Source: Crossiella sp. CA-258035 (GTDB taxonomy: Bacteria; Actinomycetota; Actinomycetes; Mycobacteriales; Pseudonocardiaceae). From it: a DNA stretch of 64,000 nt. Each line of letters opens with the position of its first letter. The stretch's first letter is position 1. The notes under the pieces are model-generated. The model made no database searches and was not told where the DNA came from. It was given only the letters and a program-made list of their open reading frames with translations. The stretch covers positions 8,275,501-8,339,500 of the forward strand of contig NZ_CP116413.1 of the NCBI RefSeq assembly GCF_030064675.1, given 5' to 3'. Positions 8,684-14,441 of the stretch are shown here, one piece after another. The position numbers were made by a program, and so were the translations under genes.

Positions 8684-9694
8684 TCAGCGCGCCAGCGGCA
8701 GCAGGATCTCGAACCGGCAGCCCGGACCGTGGTTGCTGGCGCTGATCCGGCCGTGGTGGGCCTCAACCAGTCCCCGGGCTATGGCTAGGCCCAGACCGGC
8801 TCCGGCGGCCTGGCCGGGCTCAGGAGTCCGCGCCGCGCTGCCCCGGTAGGCCACGTCGAAAACCCGGGGCAGCTCGCCGTCCGGGATGCCGCCGCAGGCG
8901 TCGTCCACGGCCAGCCAGGCCTGCCCGTCCACCTCGCCCGCGGTCACCGCGACCACCCCGCCGCGGCCGGTGTGCCGGATGGCGTTGCTGAGCAGGTTGC
9001 GCAGCACCCGGCCCAGCTCCCGCGCGCTGCCGTGCACCACCGGCCAGTCGCTGGGCGCCTCCCGCAGGGTCACCCCTGCCCGCTGGGCCACCGCGGCCTG
9101 CGCCGCGACCTCCTCGCTGACCAGGTCGCGCAGCGGCAGCGCGGTCAGCTCCAGGTTCAGCGCGCCCGCGGTGATCCGGGACAGCTGGAACAGGTCCTCG
9201 ACCATGCCGGAGACCCGTTCGGTCTCCCGGCCGATGCCCAGCAGGTAGCCGCGCACCTCGGCCGGCTCGGTGACCACGCCGTCGGTGAGCGCCTCGGTCA
9301 TCGCGCGCATGCCGGCCAGCGGGGTGCGCAGGTCGTGGCTGATCCAGGCGACCAGCTCGCGCCGGGCCGCCTCGGCCGCGCGCTCCCTGGCCCGCGCCTC
9401 CCGTTCCCACACGCTGCGCCGGGCGATGGCCCGGCCGAAGAGCACCGCGGCCGGCACGGTGACCAGGCCGACCAGCACGCAGATCACCACGGTGGTGGTG
9501 AGCTGGCTGGTGAACATGAACCCGCTGACCGCGGTCACCCCGGCCAGGGTGGCCAGCAGCGGGGTGAGCACCGCGACCGTGATCGCCGCGGTGAGCGAGC
9601 GGTCCCGGCTCCAGTGCAGGAACACCGCGCCGAGCACGGCCACCGGCACGGAGAAGCTCAGCGCGTAGGTGCCGGCGTCGAGCAGCTCACTCAT
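8684..9694 (-). CDS. sensor histidine kinase (HisKA/HATPase_c)
   Basis: A 336-residue kinase with two or more N-terminal membrane segments ('[15 protein letters not shown]', '[20 protein letters not shown]', '[19 protein letters not shown]'). The dimerisation helix has '[20 protein letters not shown]' with the phosphorylated His; the ATPase domain has '[14 protein letters not shown]' (N box), 'DDACGGIPD' (G1) and '[18 protein letters not shown]' (G2). The ATG at 9694 overlaps the stop of the response regulator gene by 4 nt, so regulator and kinase are one operon in the order regulator-kinase. Confidence 0.9.
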
Positions 9695-10410
9695 GCCGGG
9701 CTCGGGTCGTAGCGGTAGCCGACGCCCCACACGGTGGCGATGCGCACCGGGTTGGCCGGGTCGGGTTCGATCTTCTCCCGCAGCCTGCGCACGTGCACGG
9801 TGACCGTGGCCGCGTCGCCGAAGTCCCAGCCCCACACCAGTTCCAGCAGCCTGGCCCTGGTGTAGACCTCGCCGGAATGACTGAGGAAGAAGGCCAGCAG
9901 GTCGAACTCGCGGGTGGTCAGCGCCAGCTCGGCGGTGCCCCTGGTGGCGCGGCGGGCCACCGGGTCCAGGCGCAGGTCGCCGTCGGCGAGCTGGTCCAGC
10001 CGGGGCGGCGGCGCGGGCAGCCGCAGCCGCCGCAGCACCGAGTTGACCCGCAGCACCAGCTCGCGCGGGCTGAACGGCTTGGTCACGTAGTCGTCCGCGC
10101 CGAGCTGGAGCCCGGCCACCCGGTCCTCCTCCTCGCCGAGCGCGGTGAGCATGACCACCGGCACCGCGCTGTGCCTGCGCAGCCTGCGGCAGACCTCGAG
10201 CCCGTCGATGCCGGGCAGCATCAGGTCCAGCACCACCAGGTCGGCCGCGGCCTGCTCGAACAGGGCCAGCGCCTGCTCGCCGTCCCCGGCCAGCCGGACC
10301 TGGTGCCCGGCGCCCTCCAGGTAGCGGCGGACCACGTCGCGCACGGTGAGGTCGTCGTCCACGACCAGCACCCGTCCGCGCACCTCGGCCTGCCCCGGCT
10401 TGGCTTCCAC
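9691..10410 (-). CDS. OmpR/PhoB-family response regulator
   Basis: A 239-residue response regulator. The receiver domain has '[14 protein letters not shown]', phosphorylated Asp in '[13 protein letters not shown]', Thr in '[11 protein letters not shown]' and Lys in '[12 protein letters not shown]'. The C-terminal winged helix contains '[20 protein letters not shown]' and '[16 protein letters not shown]' and ends with the usual '[11 protein letters not shown]'. It is the first gene of the pair with the kinase at 8684-9694. A possible metalloregulator-type palindrome lies about 100 nt upstream (10513-10527). Confidence 0.93.
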
Positions 10411-10512
10411 CCGGCCAGCGTAGGACGGCGGGAAGACCCCGATCCGGCGACAACCATGACGGTTCTCTTTCGGATGACCGGGTGACCACTCCGGCCGATG
10501 ATCGACTACTAA

Positions 10513-10527
10513 TGGTAATGGTTATCA
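10513..10527. promoter_or_regulatory. imperfect palindrome resembling a Fur/Zur-type box
   Basis: The 15-mer TGGTAATGGTTATCA is a near-palindrome (arms TG.TAA / TTA.CA) in a short AT-rich island upstream of the OmpR-type regulator gene. Such AT-rich 15-bp dyads are bound by Fur/Zur regulators in actinomycetes, but this is resemblance only. Confidence 0.2.
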
Positions 10528-10606
10528 GCAAAGTCGAAAGCGGCGCCGTTCGCCCGGGTGTCAGCCGAAGGGAATCCCGCTGACCTGGGCGGACGACGCC
10601 GCTGAT

Positions 10607-10683
10607 TGGTGCCCCCGGACGGATTCGAACCGTCACTCGGACCCTTTTAAGGGGCCTGCCTCTACCGATTGGGCTACGGGGGC
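10607..10683 (-). tRNA. tRNA with UAA anticodon (reads UUA, leucine) but class-I fold, CCA encoded
   Basis: The minus strand folds as a cloverleaf: acceptor GCCCCCG/CGGGGGC, discriminator A and encoded CCA; anticodon stem GGCCC/GGGTC with a G-U pair; loop CTTAAAA giving anticodon UAA; T arm GACGG-TTCGAAT-CCGTC. The variable region is only 5 nt (CGAGT). The D stem is weak (three solid pairs). UAA reads the leucine codon UUA and A73 fits leucine, but leucine tRNAs normally carry a long variable arm, so the amino acid identity is uncertain. It stands alone between the regulator gene and the ATP-grasp gene. Confidence 0.8.
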
Positions 10684-10805
10684 AGCGGGCAGCCTAAGCC
10701 GTGAAAGGTCGCTTTCGGGTCTCAATCACGACAACTCGCCCGTGCGGCCGAACACATCTGGACCGACCGGCCGCAGGAAAGCCCAGCTCGGGAGGCCCGT
10801 GCGGG

Positions 10806-11999
10806 CTACAGACCGGCACGGGCGTCGAGTAGCTCTGCGAAGCGGCCCGCCACCCAGTCGTGCACCGCGTCGGAGACCTCGGTGCTGCCGGCGCGGTGTT
10901 CGAACCAGCGCCAGTCGCAGCTCACGTTGATCTCCAGGAAGACGTGTTCGCCGTCGGCCATCAGCAGGTCGAACGCGGCGACCTGGACGTTCCAGTGCCT
11001 GGCCAGCGCGAGCAGCTTGGGGGCCAGCTCCTCGGGCATGTCGACCCTGGTCACCTTGACCGCGTCCGGGTCGACCCACAGCTGCGCCGGGTCCAGCTTC
11101 TCCACCCGGTAGCTGATCAGCTTGTCGTTGACCACGAAGACCCGCAGCTCACCCTCGGCGTTGAGGAACTGCTGCACGATCACCGGCGCGGACTCGGGGC
11201 TGTCACTGGCCCTGCTGGTGTCCAGCGGCCGGGGGAACAGCCCGTGCAGCGCGCCGGGGCGCGGCTCCAGCAGGTGCTGGCCGGCGGTCTTGACGATGCA
11301 GCGGCCGCCGCCGGGCCTGGTGCGGCCGGGCTGGGTGGTGACCGCGGTGCGCGGCACCCGCAGCCCGAAGGCGGTGGCGTCGGAGAGCTGGGTGAGCCGG
11401 TCCAGCTGACAGGTGGCCCGCGTCGGGTTGACGTGCTCCCAGTCGGTGCGCTGGGCCAGCCAGTTGATCACCGAGCGCCACTGGTCGGCGGCGTAGGCCC
11501 CGCTGATGGTGCGCTGGTCCACCGGCACCGCGGAGATGTCGAAGTGCCTGCGCCAGACCAGGATCGGCCGCAGCAGCCGCAGGTCCAGCTCGACCAGCGG
11601 GGCGTCGGTGTAGATGGTCAGCGGCAGGTTCAGGCAGCGGTCGGCGTCGATGCGCACCATCCGGATGCCGCGCTCGGCCAGCGCCAGGGAGAGCTCGTTC
11701 ATCTCCATGTCCGCGGCGCGGGCCAGCACCAGCACGCAGGGCAGCGGGTCGCCGCCGTCCTCTTCCACCAGGCCCATCTCGTGCACGCGTTCCTGGAAGT
11801 CCAGGCAGGTGCTGGGCGAGCGGTAGTAGTAGTCCTGCCCCTGCAACAGCAGCGGGGTCGTCCTGGACGGACTGGCCGGAGTCGGGACGGCGGCAGGCGC
11901 CACCTCGGTGGGCGTCGACTCGGGGTCGATCACCTCGGTGGCGGCAGGAGGACCCGGTGGCCTGGGTCCGGCTTCCTGCCCCCGTCCGGCGGCGGTCAC
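10806..11999 (-). CDS. MvdD-like ATP-grasp peptide ligase (candidate RiPP maturase)
   Basis: A 397-residue ATP-grasp protein resembling the MvdC/MvdD and actinobacterial ATP-grasp ribosomal-peptide maturases, which make ester or amide crosslinks in precursor peptides. The first about 50 residues are Pro/Thr-rich and probably disordered. A pre-ATP-grasp region follows ('VLVLARAADMEMNELSLAL', 'WRRHFDIS'), then 'NPTRATCQLDRLTQLSDA' and 'LRVPRTAVTT' as in the family, the ATP-binding lysine in 'RCIVKTAGQHL', 'VIVQQFLNAEGELRVFVVND', and metal/ATP ligands in 'VAAFDLLMADGEHVFLEINVS'. GTG at 11999 lies 3 nt after the stop of a 39-codon gene, so both are one transcript. No other tailoring gene is adjacent. 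Confidence 0.78.
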   Translation of the reverse strand: MTAAGRGQEAGPRPPGPPAATEVIDPESTPTEVAPAAVPTPASPSRTTPLLLQGQDYYYRSPSTCLDFQERVHEMGLVEEDGGDPLPCVLVLARAADMEMNELSLALAERGIRMVRIDADRCLNLPLTIYTDAPLVELDLRLLRPILVWRRHFDISAVPVDQRTISGAYAADQWRSVINWLAQRTDWEHVNPTRATCQLDRLTQLSDATAFGLRVPRTAVTTQPGRTRPGGGRCIVKTAGQHLLEPRPGALHGLFPRPLDTSRASDSPESAPVIVQQFLNAEGELRVFVVNDKLISYRVEKLDPAQLWVDPDAVKVTRVDMPEELAPKLLALARHWNVQVAAFDLLMADGEHVFLEINVSCDWRWFEHRAGSTEVSDAVHDWVAGRFAELLDARAGL

Positions 12000-12002
12000 G
12001 TG

Positions 12003-12122
12003 TCAGTCGTCCTTCTTGCGGAAGACCTTCCGCGCCTTGGCGTACTCCGCGGCGTAGTCGGCGAGCGCGCTGTCCTTGGCCTTCCCCTCGCGTACCAGGG
12101 CGGCCAGCTCCTCGATCGACAT
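12003..12122 (-). CDS. 39-residue peptide directly before the ATP-grasp gene (candidate RiPP precursor)
   Basis: Translation starts MSIEELAALVREGKAKDSAL and ends ...YAKARKVFRKKDD. It is Ala-, Lys- and acid-rich, predicted helical in the first 30 residues, with no Cys, Thr, His or Trp. An AGAGAGGTGA ribosome site sits 6 nt before ATG at 12122, and codons are G/C-ending as in real genes of this genome. The stop is 3 nt from the ATP-grasp start. By position it is the natural substrate candidate: a helical leader followed by a basic/acidic tail (Lys36, Lys37, Asp38, Asp39) that could form amide links. An accessory or leader-only role is also possible; no known precursor family is recognised. Confidence 0.65.
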   Translation of the reverse strand: MSIEELAALVREGKAKDSALADYAAEYAKARKVFRKKDD

Positions 12123-12140
12123 GGCGGTCACCTCTCTTCG

Positions 12141-12156
12141 GTGTGATGCTTCACAC
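12141..12156. promoter_or_regulatory. perfect inverted repeat GTGTGA-TGCT-TCACAC
   Basis: A 6-bp perfect dyad with 4-nt spacer, 19 nt upstream of the start codon of the 39-codon peptide gene and between its ribosome site and the predicted promoter. Its place in the early leader suits an operator for a repressor. Confidence 0.5.
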
Positions 12157-12182
12157 GTTCAGGTGCGGCACCGGGCGTAGTC

Positions 12183-12222
12183 TCAAGTTCCAACTCACAG
12201 AATGTCAAGACAACCTCAAGTT
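12183..12222 (-). promoter_or_regulatory. candidate promoter with phased CTTGA repeats
   Basis: On the minus strand a clear TTGACA (complement of 12203-12208) can serve as -35 for the peptide/ATP-grasp unit; the -10 is less clear (GAGACT region, about 12178-12183). The pentamer TCAAG (CTTGA on the coding strand) occurs at 12183, 12205 and 12216, that is 22 and 11 bp apart. Eleven-bp phased direct repeats overlapping the -35 are the pattern used by SARP/OmpR-type activators. Confidence 0.4.
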
Positions 12223-12266
12223 ACATTCCGTACGCCGTGGTGTCGAGGAACTCCAGATGGAGTAAC

Positions 12267-12285
12267 CCATACGCCCGAAGTATGG
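12267..12285. repeat. short inverted repeat CCATAC-N7-GTATGG
   Basis: A 6-bp perfect dyad with a 7-nt loop 20 nt past the stop of the NADH dehydrogenase gene. It has no T-run on the minus strand, so it is a poor terminator; it might be an operator for the downstream peptide unit. Confidence 0.35.
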
Positions 12286-12304
12286 AATTTTCACCCTAGG
12301 TAGC

Positions 12305-13630
12305 TCAACTCGCTGTGGCGCGGGCGAACTCGGCCTTGGGGTCGTTGATCTGACCGAGTGACACCACCTCGCGCCGGAAGAGTAGCGCAAGGGTCCAGTC
12401 GATCAGGACCCGGAACTTCCGGTTGAAGGTGGGCATCCGGCTCACGTGGTAGGTGCGGTGCATGAACCACGCCGGGAAGCCCTTGAGCTTGATCCCGTAG
12501 ACGTCCGCGACGCCCTTGTAGAGGCCCAGGCTGGCCACCGAACCGGCGTACTTGTGCCGGTAGGGCTTGAGCTGCTTGCCGCGCATCGAGGCCAGGATGT
12601 TGCCGGCCAGGTGCACGGCCTGCCGCACCGCGTGCTGCGCCGAGGGGCTGCAGGTGGCGGTGGGGTCCTCCTCGGTGCGGGACAGGTCGGGCACGGCCGC
12701 GTTGTCCCCGGCGGCCCAGGCGTCCGGCATGCCCTCGATCTGCAGGTTGGCCGTGCAGCGCACCCGGCCGCGGGCGTCCCGCGGCAGGTCGGTCTGCTCC
12801 AGCACCGGGTTGGCCTTGACGCCCGCGGTCCACACGATGGTCTCGGCGTCGAGCTCGGTGCCGTCGCTGAGCACCACGTGACCGTCCACCATGGACTCGA
12901 CCCTGGTGTCGAGGTAGCACTTGATGCCGCGCTCCTCCAGGGTCTCCACGGTGTAGACGCCCATCTTCGGGCTGACCTCGGGCATCACCCGCCCAGCCGC
13001 CTCGACCAGGACCCAGTTCATGTCCTCGGGCTTGACGTTCTTGTAGTAGCGGGTGGCGTAGCGGGCCATGTCCTCCAGCTCGGCCAGCGCCTCGATGCCC
13101 GCGTAGCCGCCGCCGATGACCACGAAGGTCAGCAGCTTGCGGCGCAGCTCGGGGTCGTCGCTGGTGGAGGCCAGGTCCATCCGGGAGAGCACGTGGTTGC
13201 GCAGGTAGATCGCCTCGCCCACGGTCTTGAACGCGATGCCGCGCTCAGCCAGACCGGGGATCGGGAGGGTGCGGGCGACCGAGCCGAGGGCGACCACGAG
13301 CACGTCGTAGTCCACGGACTCCAGGTCGCCGGTCGGCGAGGCGACGATGGCTCGCTTGTCGGCGTGGTTGATCTCGGTCACGCGCCCGGTGAGCACGTGA
13401 CAGCGTTTCAGGACCCGGCGCAGCGGCACGACGACGTGCCTGGGCTCGATGGAGCCCGCGGCGGCCTCGGGGAGGAAGGGCTGGTAGGTCATGTGCGGCT
13501 GCGGATCGACGACCGTCACGGACGCCTCGCTCGCGCGCAGCTTGGCCTGCAGCTTCAGTGCGGTGTACATACCGACATAGCCCCCACCGACGACCAGGAT
13601 CCGGGTCGGTTGCGACTTCACAGCAGCCAT
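12305..13630 (-). CDS. ndh: type II NADH dehydrogenase (NDH-2 family FAD oxidoreductase)
   Basis: A 441-residue flavoprotein that passes electrons from NADH to the quinone pool without pumping protons. The FAD-binding Rossmann motif is 'ILVVGGGYVGMYTAL' at the N-terminus and the NADH-binding one is 'FVVIGGGYAGIEALAELEDM' near residues 170-190. 'AGDNAAVPD' is the second FAD contact, and 'SAQHAVRQAVHLAGNI' and 'FPAWFMHRTYHVSRMPT' are typical of mycobacterial Ndh. The last about 50 residues form the amphipathic membrane anchor. It is a single gene with its own promoter region upstream (13631-13729). Confidence 0.92.
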   Translation of the reverse strand: MAAVKSQPTRILVVGGGYVGMYTALKLQAKLRASEASVTVVDPQPHMTYQPFLPEAAAGSIEPRHVVVPLRRVLKRCHVLTGRVTEINHADKRAIVASPTGDLESVDYDVLVVALGSVARTLPIPGLAERGIAFKTVGEAIYLRNHVLSRMDLASTSDDPELRRKLLTFVVIGGGYAGIEALAELEDMARYATRYYKNVKPEDMNWVLVEAAGRVMPEVSPKMGVYTVETLEERGIKCYLDTRVESMVDGHVVLSDGTELDAETIVWTAGVKANPVLEQTDLPRDARGRVRCTANLQIEGMPDAWAAGDNAAVPDLSRTEEDPTATCSPSAQHAVRQAVHLAGNILASMRGKQLKPYRHKYAGSVASLGLYKGVADVYGIKLKGFPAWFMHRTYHVSRMPTFNRKFRVLIDWTLALLFRREVVSLGQINDPKAEFARATAS

Positions 13631-13729
13631 ACCTGAATCGTCGCACCCACGGGGTATGGCCGCTTACCAGAACCAGCGCGTTCTGCGCCACAGTGCGGCG
13701 TTTCGCGCCGTGTTCTCCGCCACGCGCGG

Positions 13730-13906
13730 TCACTCCCGCGCCCCGGCGCTCGCGGTCACCTCGATCTCGATGCGCGGCGCGGGGAAGGAGTGCACCCGCA
13801 CCCTGACGTCCTTCTCGGCCGCCACCGCCCGCGCCAGCAACACCGGCACGAACACGGTCAACCAGCCCAGCAGGAGGAACGCGAACAACAGCACGGTCCA
13901 CGACAT
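13730..13906 (-). CDS. small single-span membrane protein, unknown function
   Basis: A 58-residue protein starting MSWTVLLFAFLLLGWLTVFV, one strongly hydrophobic helix followed by a charged tail of about 35 residues. ATG at 13906 is chosen over an upstream in-frame GTG because the hydrophobic segment begins right after it. G/C-ending codons support coding. No family is recognised. Confidence 0.5.
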   Translation of the reverse strand: MSWTVLLFAFLLLGWLTVFVPVLLARAVAAEKDVRVRVHSFPAPRIEIEVTASAGARE

Positions 13907-13985
13907 GAGACGTCCTCGGCCCGCCTGGGTCACCAACGCCCCCTGCGCGTGCCACCCACGTTACCGAGCGCGCCGGCCGCGCGCA

Positions 13986-14441
13986 TCACCCGCGCGGCCG
14001 CAGTTCTGCCAGCACCGCCTCGACCTCCGCCGGAACCACGCGTCCAAGTCGGCCAGCCCCGCCGCGAGGTCCACCGGCGGCAGCCGCACCGCGTGCCCGA
14101 CCCAGCCCCGCAGCTCGGCCAGGCCGCGGTAGGCCCAGCGCACCTCCCAGCCCGGCCAGGTGCGCGCCGGCACCGCGAACACAGCCGCCCGCACCGGCAG
14201 CTCGCGCAGGTGCCAGAAGAAGAACAGGACCACCCGCCGCCGGAGGTCCAGCAGCAGCCCGCCCTCACCCCAGCGCTGGTCCAGCCACTCCTGCGCCGGC
14301 CGCTGGGCGCGGACCAGGCGCACCGCGTGCCCGGGGCCGGGCAGCAGGTCGGTCTCCAGGGTGTTCGCCGCCCAGTGCGAGTGAGCGCAGGCTCCGGCTG
14401 CCGTCGGCCTCGACCAGCACGAGGTTGGCGCGGTGTCCCAT
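13986..14441 (-). pseudogene. hypothetical protein gene broken by two compensating frameshifts
   Basis: ATG at 14441 gives 'MGHRANLVLVEADGSRSLR' and then loses homology-like sequence; the next frame takes over with 'HSHWAANTLETDLLPGPGHA', 'LVRAQRPAQEWLDQRWGEGG', 'LLLDLRRRVVLFFFWHL' and so on to 'LADLDAWFRR'; the first frame then resumes with 'AEVEAVLAELRPRG' and a stop at 13986. The whole fits one about 150-residue protein of a conserved actinobacterial family. The shifts lie near 14384-14400 and near 14025-14040, and cancel each other. Either the gene is decayed or the sequence has two single-base errors. Function of the family is unknown to me. Confidence 0.6.

Follow-up and report, generated by a model that had tools for sequence, protein, structure and literature searches.

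A conserved peptide with a constant C-terminal tail and an adjacent graspetide-type ATP-grasp ligase: a candidate two-gene RiPP system in Crossiella and related genera

Results

Organization of the locus

The window, the whole stretch of DNA analysed here (64,000 nucleotides), comes from the 9.17-Mb genome of Crossiella sp. CA-258035. It carries, on the minus strand, a precursor-like peptide gene (12003..12122) followed by an ATP-grasp ligase gene (10806..11999). The peptide ORF (12122-12003) extends from an ATG start to a TGA stop and encodes the 39 amino acids MSIEELAALVREGKAKDSALADYAAEYAKARKVFRKKDD, with a leader-like first part and a K36-K37-D38-D39 tail immediately before the stop codon. 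The translation contains no threonine, proline or cysteine and only two serines, confirming the absence of Thr and the two Ser reported in the sequence-only reading from which this work started (hereafter referred to as the original prediction). The gene arrangement was also as predicted: the ligase ORF (11999-10806; 397 aa, GTG start) begins 3 nt past the peptide stop, on the same strand. Searches with the peptide against the Pfam, NCBIfam and PHROGs family models yielded no match. In Lentzea, the peptide stop and a candidate ligase start share 4 nt in most loci, a gene layout suggestive of coupled translation of peptide and ligase.

An NDH-2-type NADH dehydrogenase gene (12305..13630, minus strand) lies upstream of the peptide gene and matches Pfam Pyr_redox_2 and NDH2_C (28.1 bits, cutoff 27.7). 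Just downstream of the ligase, and outside the system, is a tRNA-Leu (taa) gene (10607..10683, minus strand), the sole Rfam match over positions 9500-14200.

The original prediction gave the pair a structured promoter of its own. The promoter itself is borne out by a conserved promoter-like element (12177..12208, minus strand), consisting of TTGACA at 12208-12203 and GAGACTAC 18 nt downstream of it. In an alignment of 35 of the 70 available upstream regions, TTGAC[A/T] was present in 34 (all but L090), about 83-98 nt ahead of the peptide start, and a second element, GA(G/A)AC-TAC, was partly conserved ~18 nt past it, more weakly in Saccharopolyspora. A plain sigma-70 consensus scan flagged nothing at the TTGACA element. 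Near the expected transcript start, an inverted repeat, GGTGCCGCACC (GGTGnnnCACC; 12162..12172, minus strand), appeared by eye to be partly conserved and may be an operator. The structured part of the claim, taken as an RNA fold, was not upheld: no structure was supported over the peptide gene, 161 of 200 shuffled sequences folding equally well or better (z = +0.89).

Co-occurrence of peptide and ligase

Co-occurrence was assessed in 297 genomes of the window's family, including its own, representing 46 genera. Ligase matches were obtained in 165 genomes (E 1e-3), 109 of which had a strong orthologue (E <= 9.3e-60); the remainder were weaker, the best being that of genome G191 (39% identity). 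A search with the peptide gave a single match each (E 0.01) in 108 genomes from 18 genera. All 108 peptides share contig and strand with a strong ligase and lie directly before it, and 108 of the 109 strong ligases have a peptide; the exception, in G011, starts at the third base of its contig. There was no case of a peptide without the ligase among the 297 genomes. Conserved co-occurrence, set beforehand as the test that could overturn the prediction, was therefore observed in both directions. In the named collection, 70 loci were recovered; the peptide was present in 69, the one locus without it, L100, being an end fragment of 4.2 kb.

The NDH-2 gene lies upstream of the peptide, on the same strand, in all 69 named peptide loci, with 154-410 nt between the end of its match and the peptide. 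It was also present in all nine tested genomes without the pair, indicating that the pair adjoins a core gene. Other than the ligase and NDH-2, no gene family was found in more than 37 of the 69 neighbourhoods (~9 kb), in a rough clustering based on a crude gene finder, with part of the families identified. A protein search of a plasmid collection with the ligase gave no match. In our main reading, set out below, the pair is a two-gene RiPP-type modification system, inherited vertically at a fixed genomic place.

Conservation of the peptide

The original prediction proposed to examine whether the C-terminal Lys and Asp residues were conserved. In the alignment, the peptide ends in [K/R]KDD-stop in 69 of the 69 named loci (hereafter referred to as KKDD loci), which we count in favour of an amide in the tail. 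L075 alone has RKDD, the other 68 having KKDD; the first Lys being an Arg in L075, just one tail Lys is invariant, and we count this against a lactam. The residues L6, A7, R11, G13, L20, A21 and Y27 are also invariant across these loci, and positions 5, 17 and 26 are mostly acidic, with Lys residues also on hand. The leader is less fixed than the tail, 19 relatives being 46-87% identical overall to the window peptide. Helices were predicted at residues 3-11 and 17-31 (pLDDT about 50-67; tail <50) in a model of peptide plus ligase. The ribosome site is conserved, and the aligned start codon is TTG in 13 of the 69 loci. Pairwise pN/pS, calculated after the exclusion of pairs with identical DNA, was 0.24 for 50 forty-residue forms and 0.41 for 19 thirty-nine-residue forms. 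Spurious ORFs are numerous in this region of the window, and the peptide might accordingly be taken for a chance ORF in GC-rich DNA; this possibility, to which we attach almost no weight, is ruled out by the pairing with the ligase in 108 of 109 genomes, the pN/pS values of both length forms and the conservation of the ribosome site and promoter.

Five genomes of the window's genus have identical DNA over the peptide ORF and the 60 nt upstream of it, with no differences at 26.7 synonymous sites of the ORF. In comparison with L005, the most distant of the five, 67 synonymous differences were counted over 260.8 sites in the ligase core and 63 over 223.3 sites in part of NDH-2. Positions 12003-12182 of the window and the equivalent positions in L002-L005 are 100% identical, identity in the flanking 60-nt segments dropping to 0.72 in the most distant. 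Synonymous third-position change was also lowest in the peptide in Lentzea (0.047, 0.274 and 0.103 for peptide, ligase and NDH-2, respectively), Saccharothrix (0.109, 0.193 and 0.150), Umezawaea (0.140, 0.241 and 0.209) and the two Allokutzneria loci (0.026, 0.153 and 0.144). This slow-down is nevertheless not general, because two genera depart from the pattern: in Kutzneria, the peptide value (0.211) was below that for the ligase (0.292) but not below that for NDH-2 (0.195), and in Saccharopolyspora it exceeded both (0.315, versus 0.274 and 0.175). High expression is one possible explanation of the slow-down; RNA structure is unsupported as its cause, given the shuffle test (z = +0.89).

The ATP-grasp ligase

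The fold of the ligase was searched from an AlphaFold model of peptide and ligase as one chain (mean pLDDT 68.8). Values of pLDDT <50 were obtained for ligase residues 1-68 and fused residues ~280-310, most of the remaining ligase lying at 65-96. The low confidence at the peptide and its tail makes the docking of the tail unreadable, and the ligase fold alone was therefore used. Foldseek ranks 1-31 were all occupied by graspetide ligases (PsnB, MdnC, MdnB, AMdnB, PruB and CdnC; best E 1.4e-17), followed by ArgX (E 6.9e-13 and weaker) and then RimK and LysX (1.4e-11). The profile search agreed, grouping the ligase with the graspetide macrocyclases, although the scores for the curated families TIGR04187 (GRASP_SAV_5884; 83.6 bits, cutoff 350), TIGR04185 (52.5 bits, cutoff 425) and TIGR04184 (MvdD; 44.9 bits, cutoff 475) were all below cutoff. 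The ligase had been described as MvdD-like: it is of the graspetide type, but closer to TIGR04187 than to MvdD, each comparison falling short of its cutoff. Residues K237, D344, E356 and N358, to which we assign a presumed role in ATP/Mg binding from the superfamily, are invariant in a 32-row alignment of the ligase family. The N-terminal extension (11784..11999, minus strand), previously described as Pro/Thr-rich, does comprise a variable Pro-rich stretch (~residues 1-45), but its distal part contains the conserved motifs PLLLQGxDY (49-57; within the low-confidence part of the model) and DFQERV (67-72) in the alignment. The nearest named ligases are those of other Crossiella, with 98 and 95% identity.

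A SagB-like dehydrogenase in related loci

The original prediction envisaged a minimal system with no other tailoring enzyme. This holds for the window and its genome, which gave no match to a SagB query at E 1e-3, but a SagB-like dehydrogenase is the next gene in 23 of the 69 named KKDD loci, in Saccharothrix, Umezawaea, Actinosynnema, Streptoalloteichus, Solihabitans, Goodfellowiella, Actinoalloteichus and Longimycelium. It is likewise adjacent in all five of the more distant loci (L101, L119, L156, L157 and L158). This partner scored above the cutoff for the SagB family TIGR03605 (109.9 versus 78.4 bits) and under that for TIGR04511. Its best fold matches were ThcOx, BmdC and McbC, with large rmsd values over the whole chain (15.5 over 377 columns for ThcOx; mean pLDDT of the model 69.5). 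The beta-beta-beta/alpha-alpha-alpha N-terminus of the model is one that we take to resemble a RiPP recognition element.

Among 18 genomes searched with the SagB query (E 1e-3), 11 had a match. The ancestral operon was probably peptide/ATP-grasp/SagB-like FMN dehydrogenase, the two-gene form of the window appearing to be a reduced version of it. From the ligase tree, as read by eye, SagB is probably ancestral to both subclades described below and was lost more than once while the pair stayed. Simple loss is called into question by G125 (assigned to the Kutzneria group through matching coordinates), which has a 45% relative elsewhere in its genome, and by G043, with a 36% relative.

Sister peptides and the ligase phylogeny

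The ATP-grasp tree comprised 33 rows, including 14 of the 70 KKDD ligases. The SagB-linked group formed a single clade (support 99/95), splitting into a KKD(D/N) subclade (98/96) and a subclade with Cys-containing tails (99/96). L158, in the former, encodes MEEIAKLVLAGSAEGGALGEYAREYAGVSPNHDKKDN, the last residue of which is Asn rather than Asp (KKDN); it was recovered by a KKDD profile built without it (E 3.3e-6). In the Cys-tail subclade, the peptides end in CKSCHGG (L101), CKGCHGG (L119), CAKTHC (L156) and CNKTHC (L157). These two tail types, CKxCHGG and CxKTHC, contain Lys but no Asp or Glu within the last ten residues. Across the two subclades, the leaders are weakly similar (hhalign probability 47.6, E 1.9e-4); the KKDD profile matched L101 at E 0.071 and L156 at E 7.9, and L119 was absent up to E 10.

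The CHGG-ending peptides (L101 4326-4484 and L119 2902-3072) contain a CXXCH motif. In L101 and L134, the peptide gene follows a hemH-like gene, itself preceded by inhA- and fabG-like genes (names assigned by eye).

In the order to which L158 belongs, 10 of 345 genomes had a ligase match at E 1e-55; on this count, the system is sporadic in that order, outside the window's family. Another ATP-grasp group is accompanied by similar ORFs of 30-32 aa ending in PC-stop and overlapping the ligase start (L122 1295-1387, L123 1313-1405, L125 1259-1357 and L126 2523-2615), possibly a precursor or a frame artefact. In L133 (7017-12739), an ATP-grasp gene of the wider branch lies near genes resembling, by eye, a second ATP-grasp, an amidinotransferase and a ketosynthase III, an arrangement reminiscent of a pheganomycin-type cluster. 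In L118 (308-3852), the ATP-grasp gene lies between TauD-type oxygenase-like and cupin-like genes (by eye), an arrangement that may represent a further modified-peptide cluster in the same order.

Discussion

Proposed mode of action

Our main reading, to which we assign a probability of about 0.5, is that the ligase forms an amide at the extreme C-terminus of the peptide, most likely a Lys lactam within it. The first two-thirds of the peptide would act as a helical leader recognised by the ligase, which would phosphorylate a carboxylate of the invariant [K/R]KDD tail for amide formation there. The likeliest bond would be a lactam in which the conserved Lys is joined to the side chain of an Asp or to the carboxylate of the C-terminus. 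In lineages with SagB, the product would then be oxidised; that of the window would stop before oxidation. The original prediction, a precursor and a graspetide-like ligase with Lys-Asp/Glu amides favoured over esters, fits these findings in general, but a Lys-Asp/Glu link inside the tail is not a clade-wide reaction, because the sister tails lack Asp and Glu; acids further upstream would be possible partners. As the last ten residues of these tails include Lys but no acid, the carboxylate common to all tails is the C-terminal one, making a Lys-to-tail lactam and the ligation of an outside amine both live options. We count against an intrapeptide amide the lack of a Pro or GG leader motif, the acid-free sister tails, the Asn end in L158, the weak leader similarity between subclades and the low confidence of the peptide in the model.

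Alternative explanations

The option of an outside amine leads to the main rival reading, which we consider possible, if doubtful, and in which the peptide is a carrier or scaffold: the ligase would couple the C-terminal carboxylate to an external amine or amino acid, or else the conserved Lys to an external acid, and the group would be processed, by SagB where present, and released, as with LysW and ArgX/LysX or the pearlins. The constancy of the C-terminus in all 69 loci, right up to the stop, speaks for such a peptide, as do wholly different sister tails that share Lys and a free C-terminal carboxylate, and a small-molecule product could account for the absence of a third gene family from more than 37 of the 69 neighbourhoods. 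ArgX, RimK and LysX are, moreover, the next fold matches after the graspetide enzymes; the latter are nevertheless clearly closer than ArgX, by both fold and profile. LysW-type carriers have an EDWGE C-terminus and zinc-binding cysteines, whereas the window peptide ends in KKDD and contains no Cys. The LysW systems resemble ours in that an ATP-grasp ligase of related fold works on the C-terminal end of a small carrier, but the peptide sequences are unrelated. Pearlins (TglA, AmmA) provide the scaffold precedent, with modification at the C-terminus, but by tRNA-dependent ligases (PEARLs) rather than an ATP-grasp enzyme.

That the peptide is a small partner or activator, with the ligase modifying another protein or metabolite, appears rather unlikely. 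A single copy always adjoining the ligase and the helices predicted, at low confidence, at 3-11 and 17-31 would suit such a role, and graspetide ligases requiring partner proteins are on record (PMC13097080); different tails behind at least weakly similar leaders form, however, the pattern of a precursor, and a RiPP-type oxidase is also encoded in all five sister loci and in 23 of 69 KKDD loci. We regard as improbable an ordinary exported graspetide, a protease inhibitor or antibiotic with Lys-Asp/Glu lactams: the ligase fold and the mostly acidic positions 5, 17 and 26, together with the Lys residues, agree with it, but the invariant tail, single copy and fixed place contrast with the core diversity described in PMC8939145, and no exporter or protease family is common to the ~9-kb neighbourhoods, insofar as their families were identified. 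Finally, a peptide put as a tag on other proteins, as Pup is by PafA, would have a fixed C-terminal end, and two sister peptides end in GG. This is very improbable, given that the ligase resembles peptide macrocyclases, the fold of PafA-type ligases being different from that of the ATP-grasp ligase here, and that there is no evidence of conjugates.

Relation to known graspetides

Among known systems, the graspetides (microviridin, plesiocin and others), made by ligases such as MdnB/MdnC, PsnB and PruB, are among the closest. Like these, the present system has a small precursor gene directly before that of an ATP-grasp ligase of the same, macrocyclase-type fold (Foldseek ranks 1-31; pairing in 108 of 109) and a candidate nucleophile with acids at the peptide C-terminus. 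A conserved core pattern of donor (Ser/Thr/Lys) and acceptor (Asp/Glu) residues is suggested by K-D-D being final in 69 of 69 loci, but not by the acid-free sister tails. Unlike the graspetides, it has no Thr, no tail Ser and no Pro or GG motif, its few candidate residues are invariant up to the stop codon, and the ligase lies below all the curated cutoffs. The window peptide, having no Pro, lacks the leader motif PFFARFL or Phhx(1,2)h; in PMC8939145, however, the Phhx(1,2)h and GG motifs are each attributed to about half of the precursors, and graspetide cores are described as diverse.

Of the papers listed in a literature search, two were judged to bear closely on the system: Makarova et al. 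2022 and Carter et al. 2026. According to the former (PMC8939145), branch 6 combines an ATP-grasp with a SagB-like nitroreductase and precursor clusters 367 and 1115, which are distantly related to each other and have a SagB neighbour in most of their loci. Cluster 1115 is one of two without a GG-like motif (section 5), and in section 6 neither a GG nor a Phhx(1,2)h motif is obvious in either 367 or 1115. The SagB gene beside the ATP-grasp in 23 of 69 KKDD and five of five sister loci is similar to this arrangement; the window's genome differs in having no SagB match. The system may already be counted in branch 6, and the KKDD and CHGG peptides could be clusters 367 and 1115, a guess based on comparison by description; the text consulted mentions neither NDH-2 nor the genera found here. 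Carter et al. 2026 (PMC13097080) describe 19 new graspetide groups, which may include the KKDD and CHGG peptides. In the same paper, some graspetide ligases need partner proteins, and corallotide contains Lys-Asp isopeptides, the Lys being hydroxylated afterwards. Such oxidation of the Lys once the isopeptide has formed parallels the possible SagB step here, but corallotide, as described there, differs in its five repeated motifs, its 2OG-iron oxygenase in place of SagB and its different precursor.

Biological significance

Studies of graspetides have dealt mostly with variable cores, whereas here a graspetide-type ligase accompanies a constant-tail peptide, which spans 18 of the 46 genera sampled, the tail itself having been read in 69 named loci. 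The tails KKDD, KKDN, CKxCHGG and CxKTHC constitute a natural substrate set for the study of ATP-grasp action on an acid-free tail. Given the invariant tail, the fixed genomic place and the absence of a third shared gene family, a constant cellular role of the product seems probable. More speculatively, this might be a housekeeping system apart from the antibiotic graspetides, in which the ATP-grasp acts on the free C-terminus of a constant-tail peptide, through a Lys-to-tail lactam or as an outside-amine carrier, to yield a small molecule that is conserved and might be a redox cofactor, a possibility raised by the linkage to NDH-2 and by SagB, a flavin enzyme, in relatives. The constant tail, the fixed place beside a respiratory gene and the retention of the pair where the oxidase is missing point to a function that serves the producing cell, and the system, confined here to one branch of soil actinomycetes, looks like one kept for an everyday cell job rather than as a fast-changing antibiotic.
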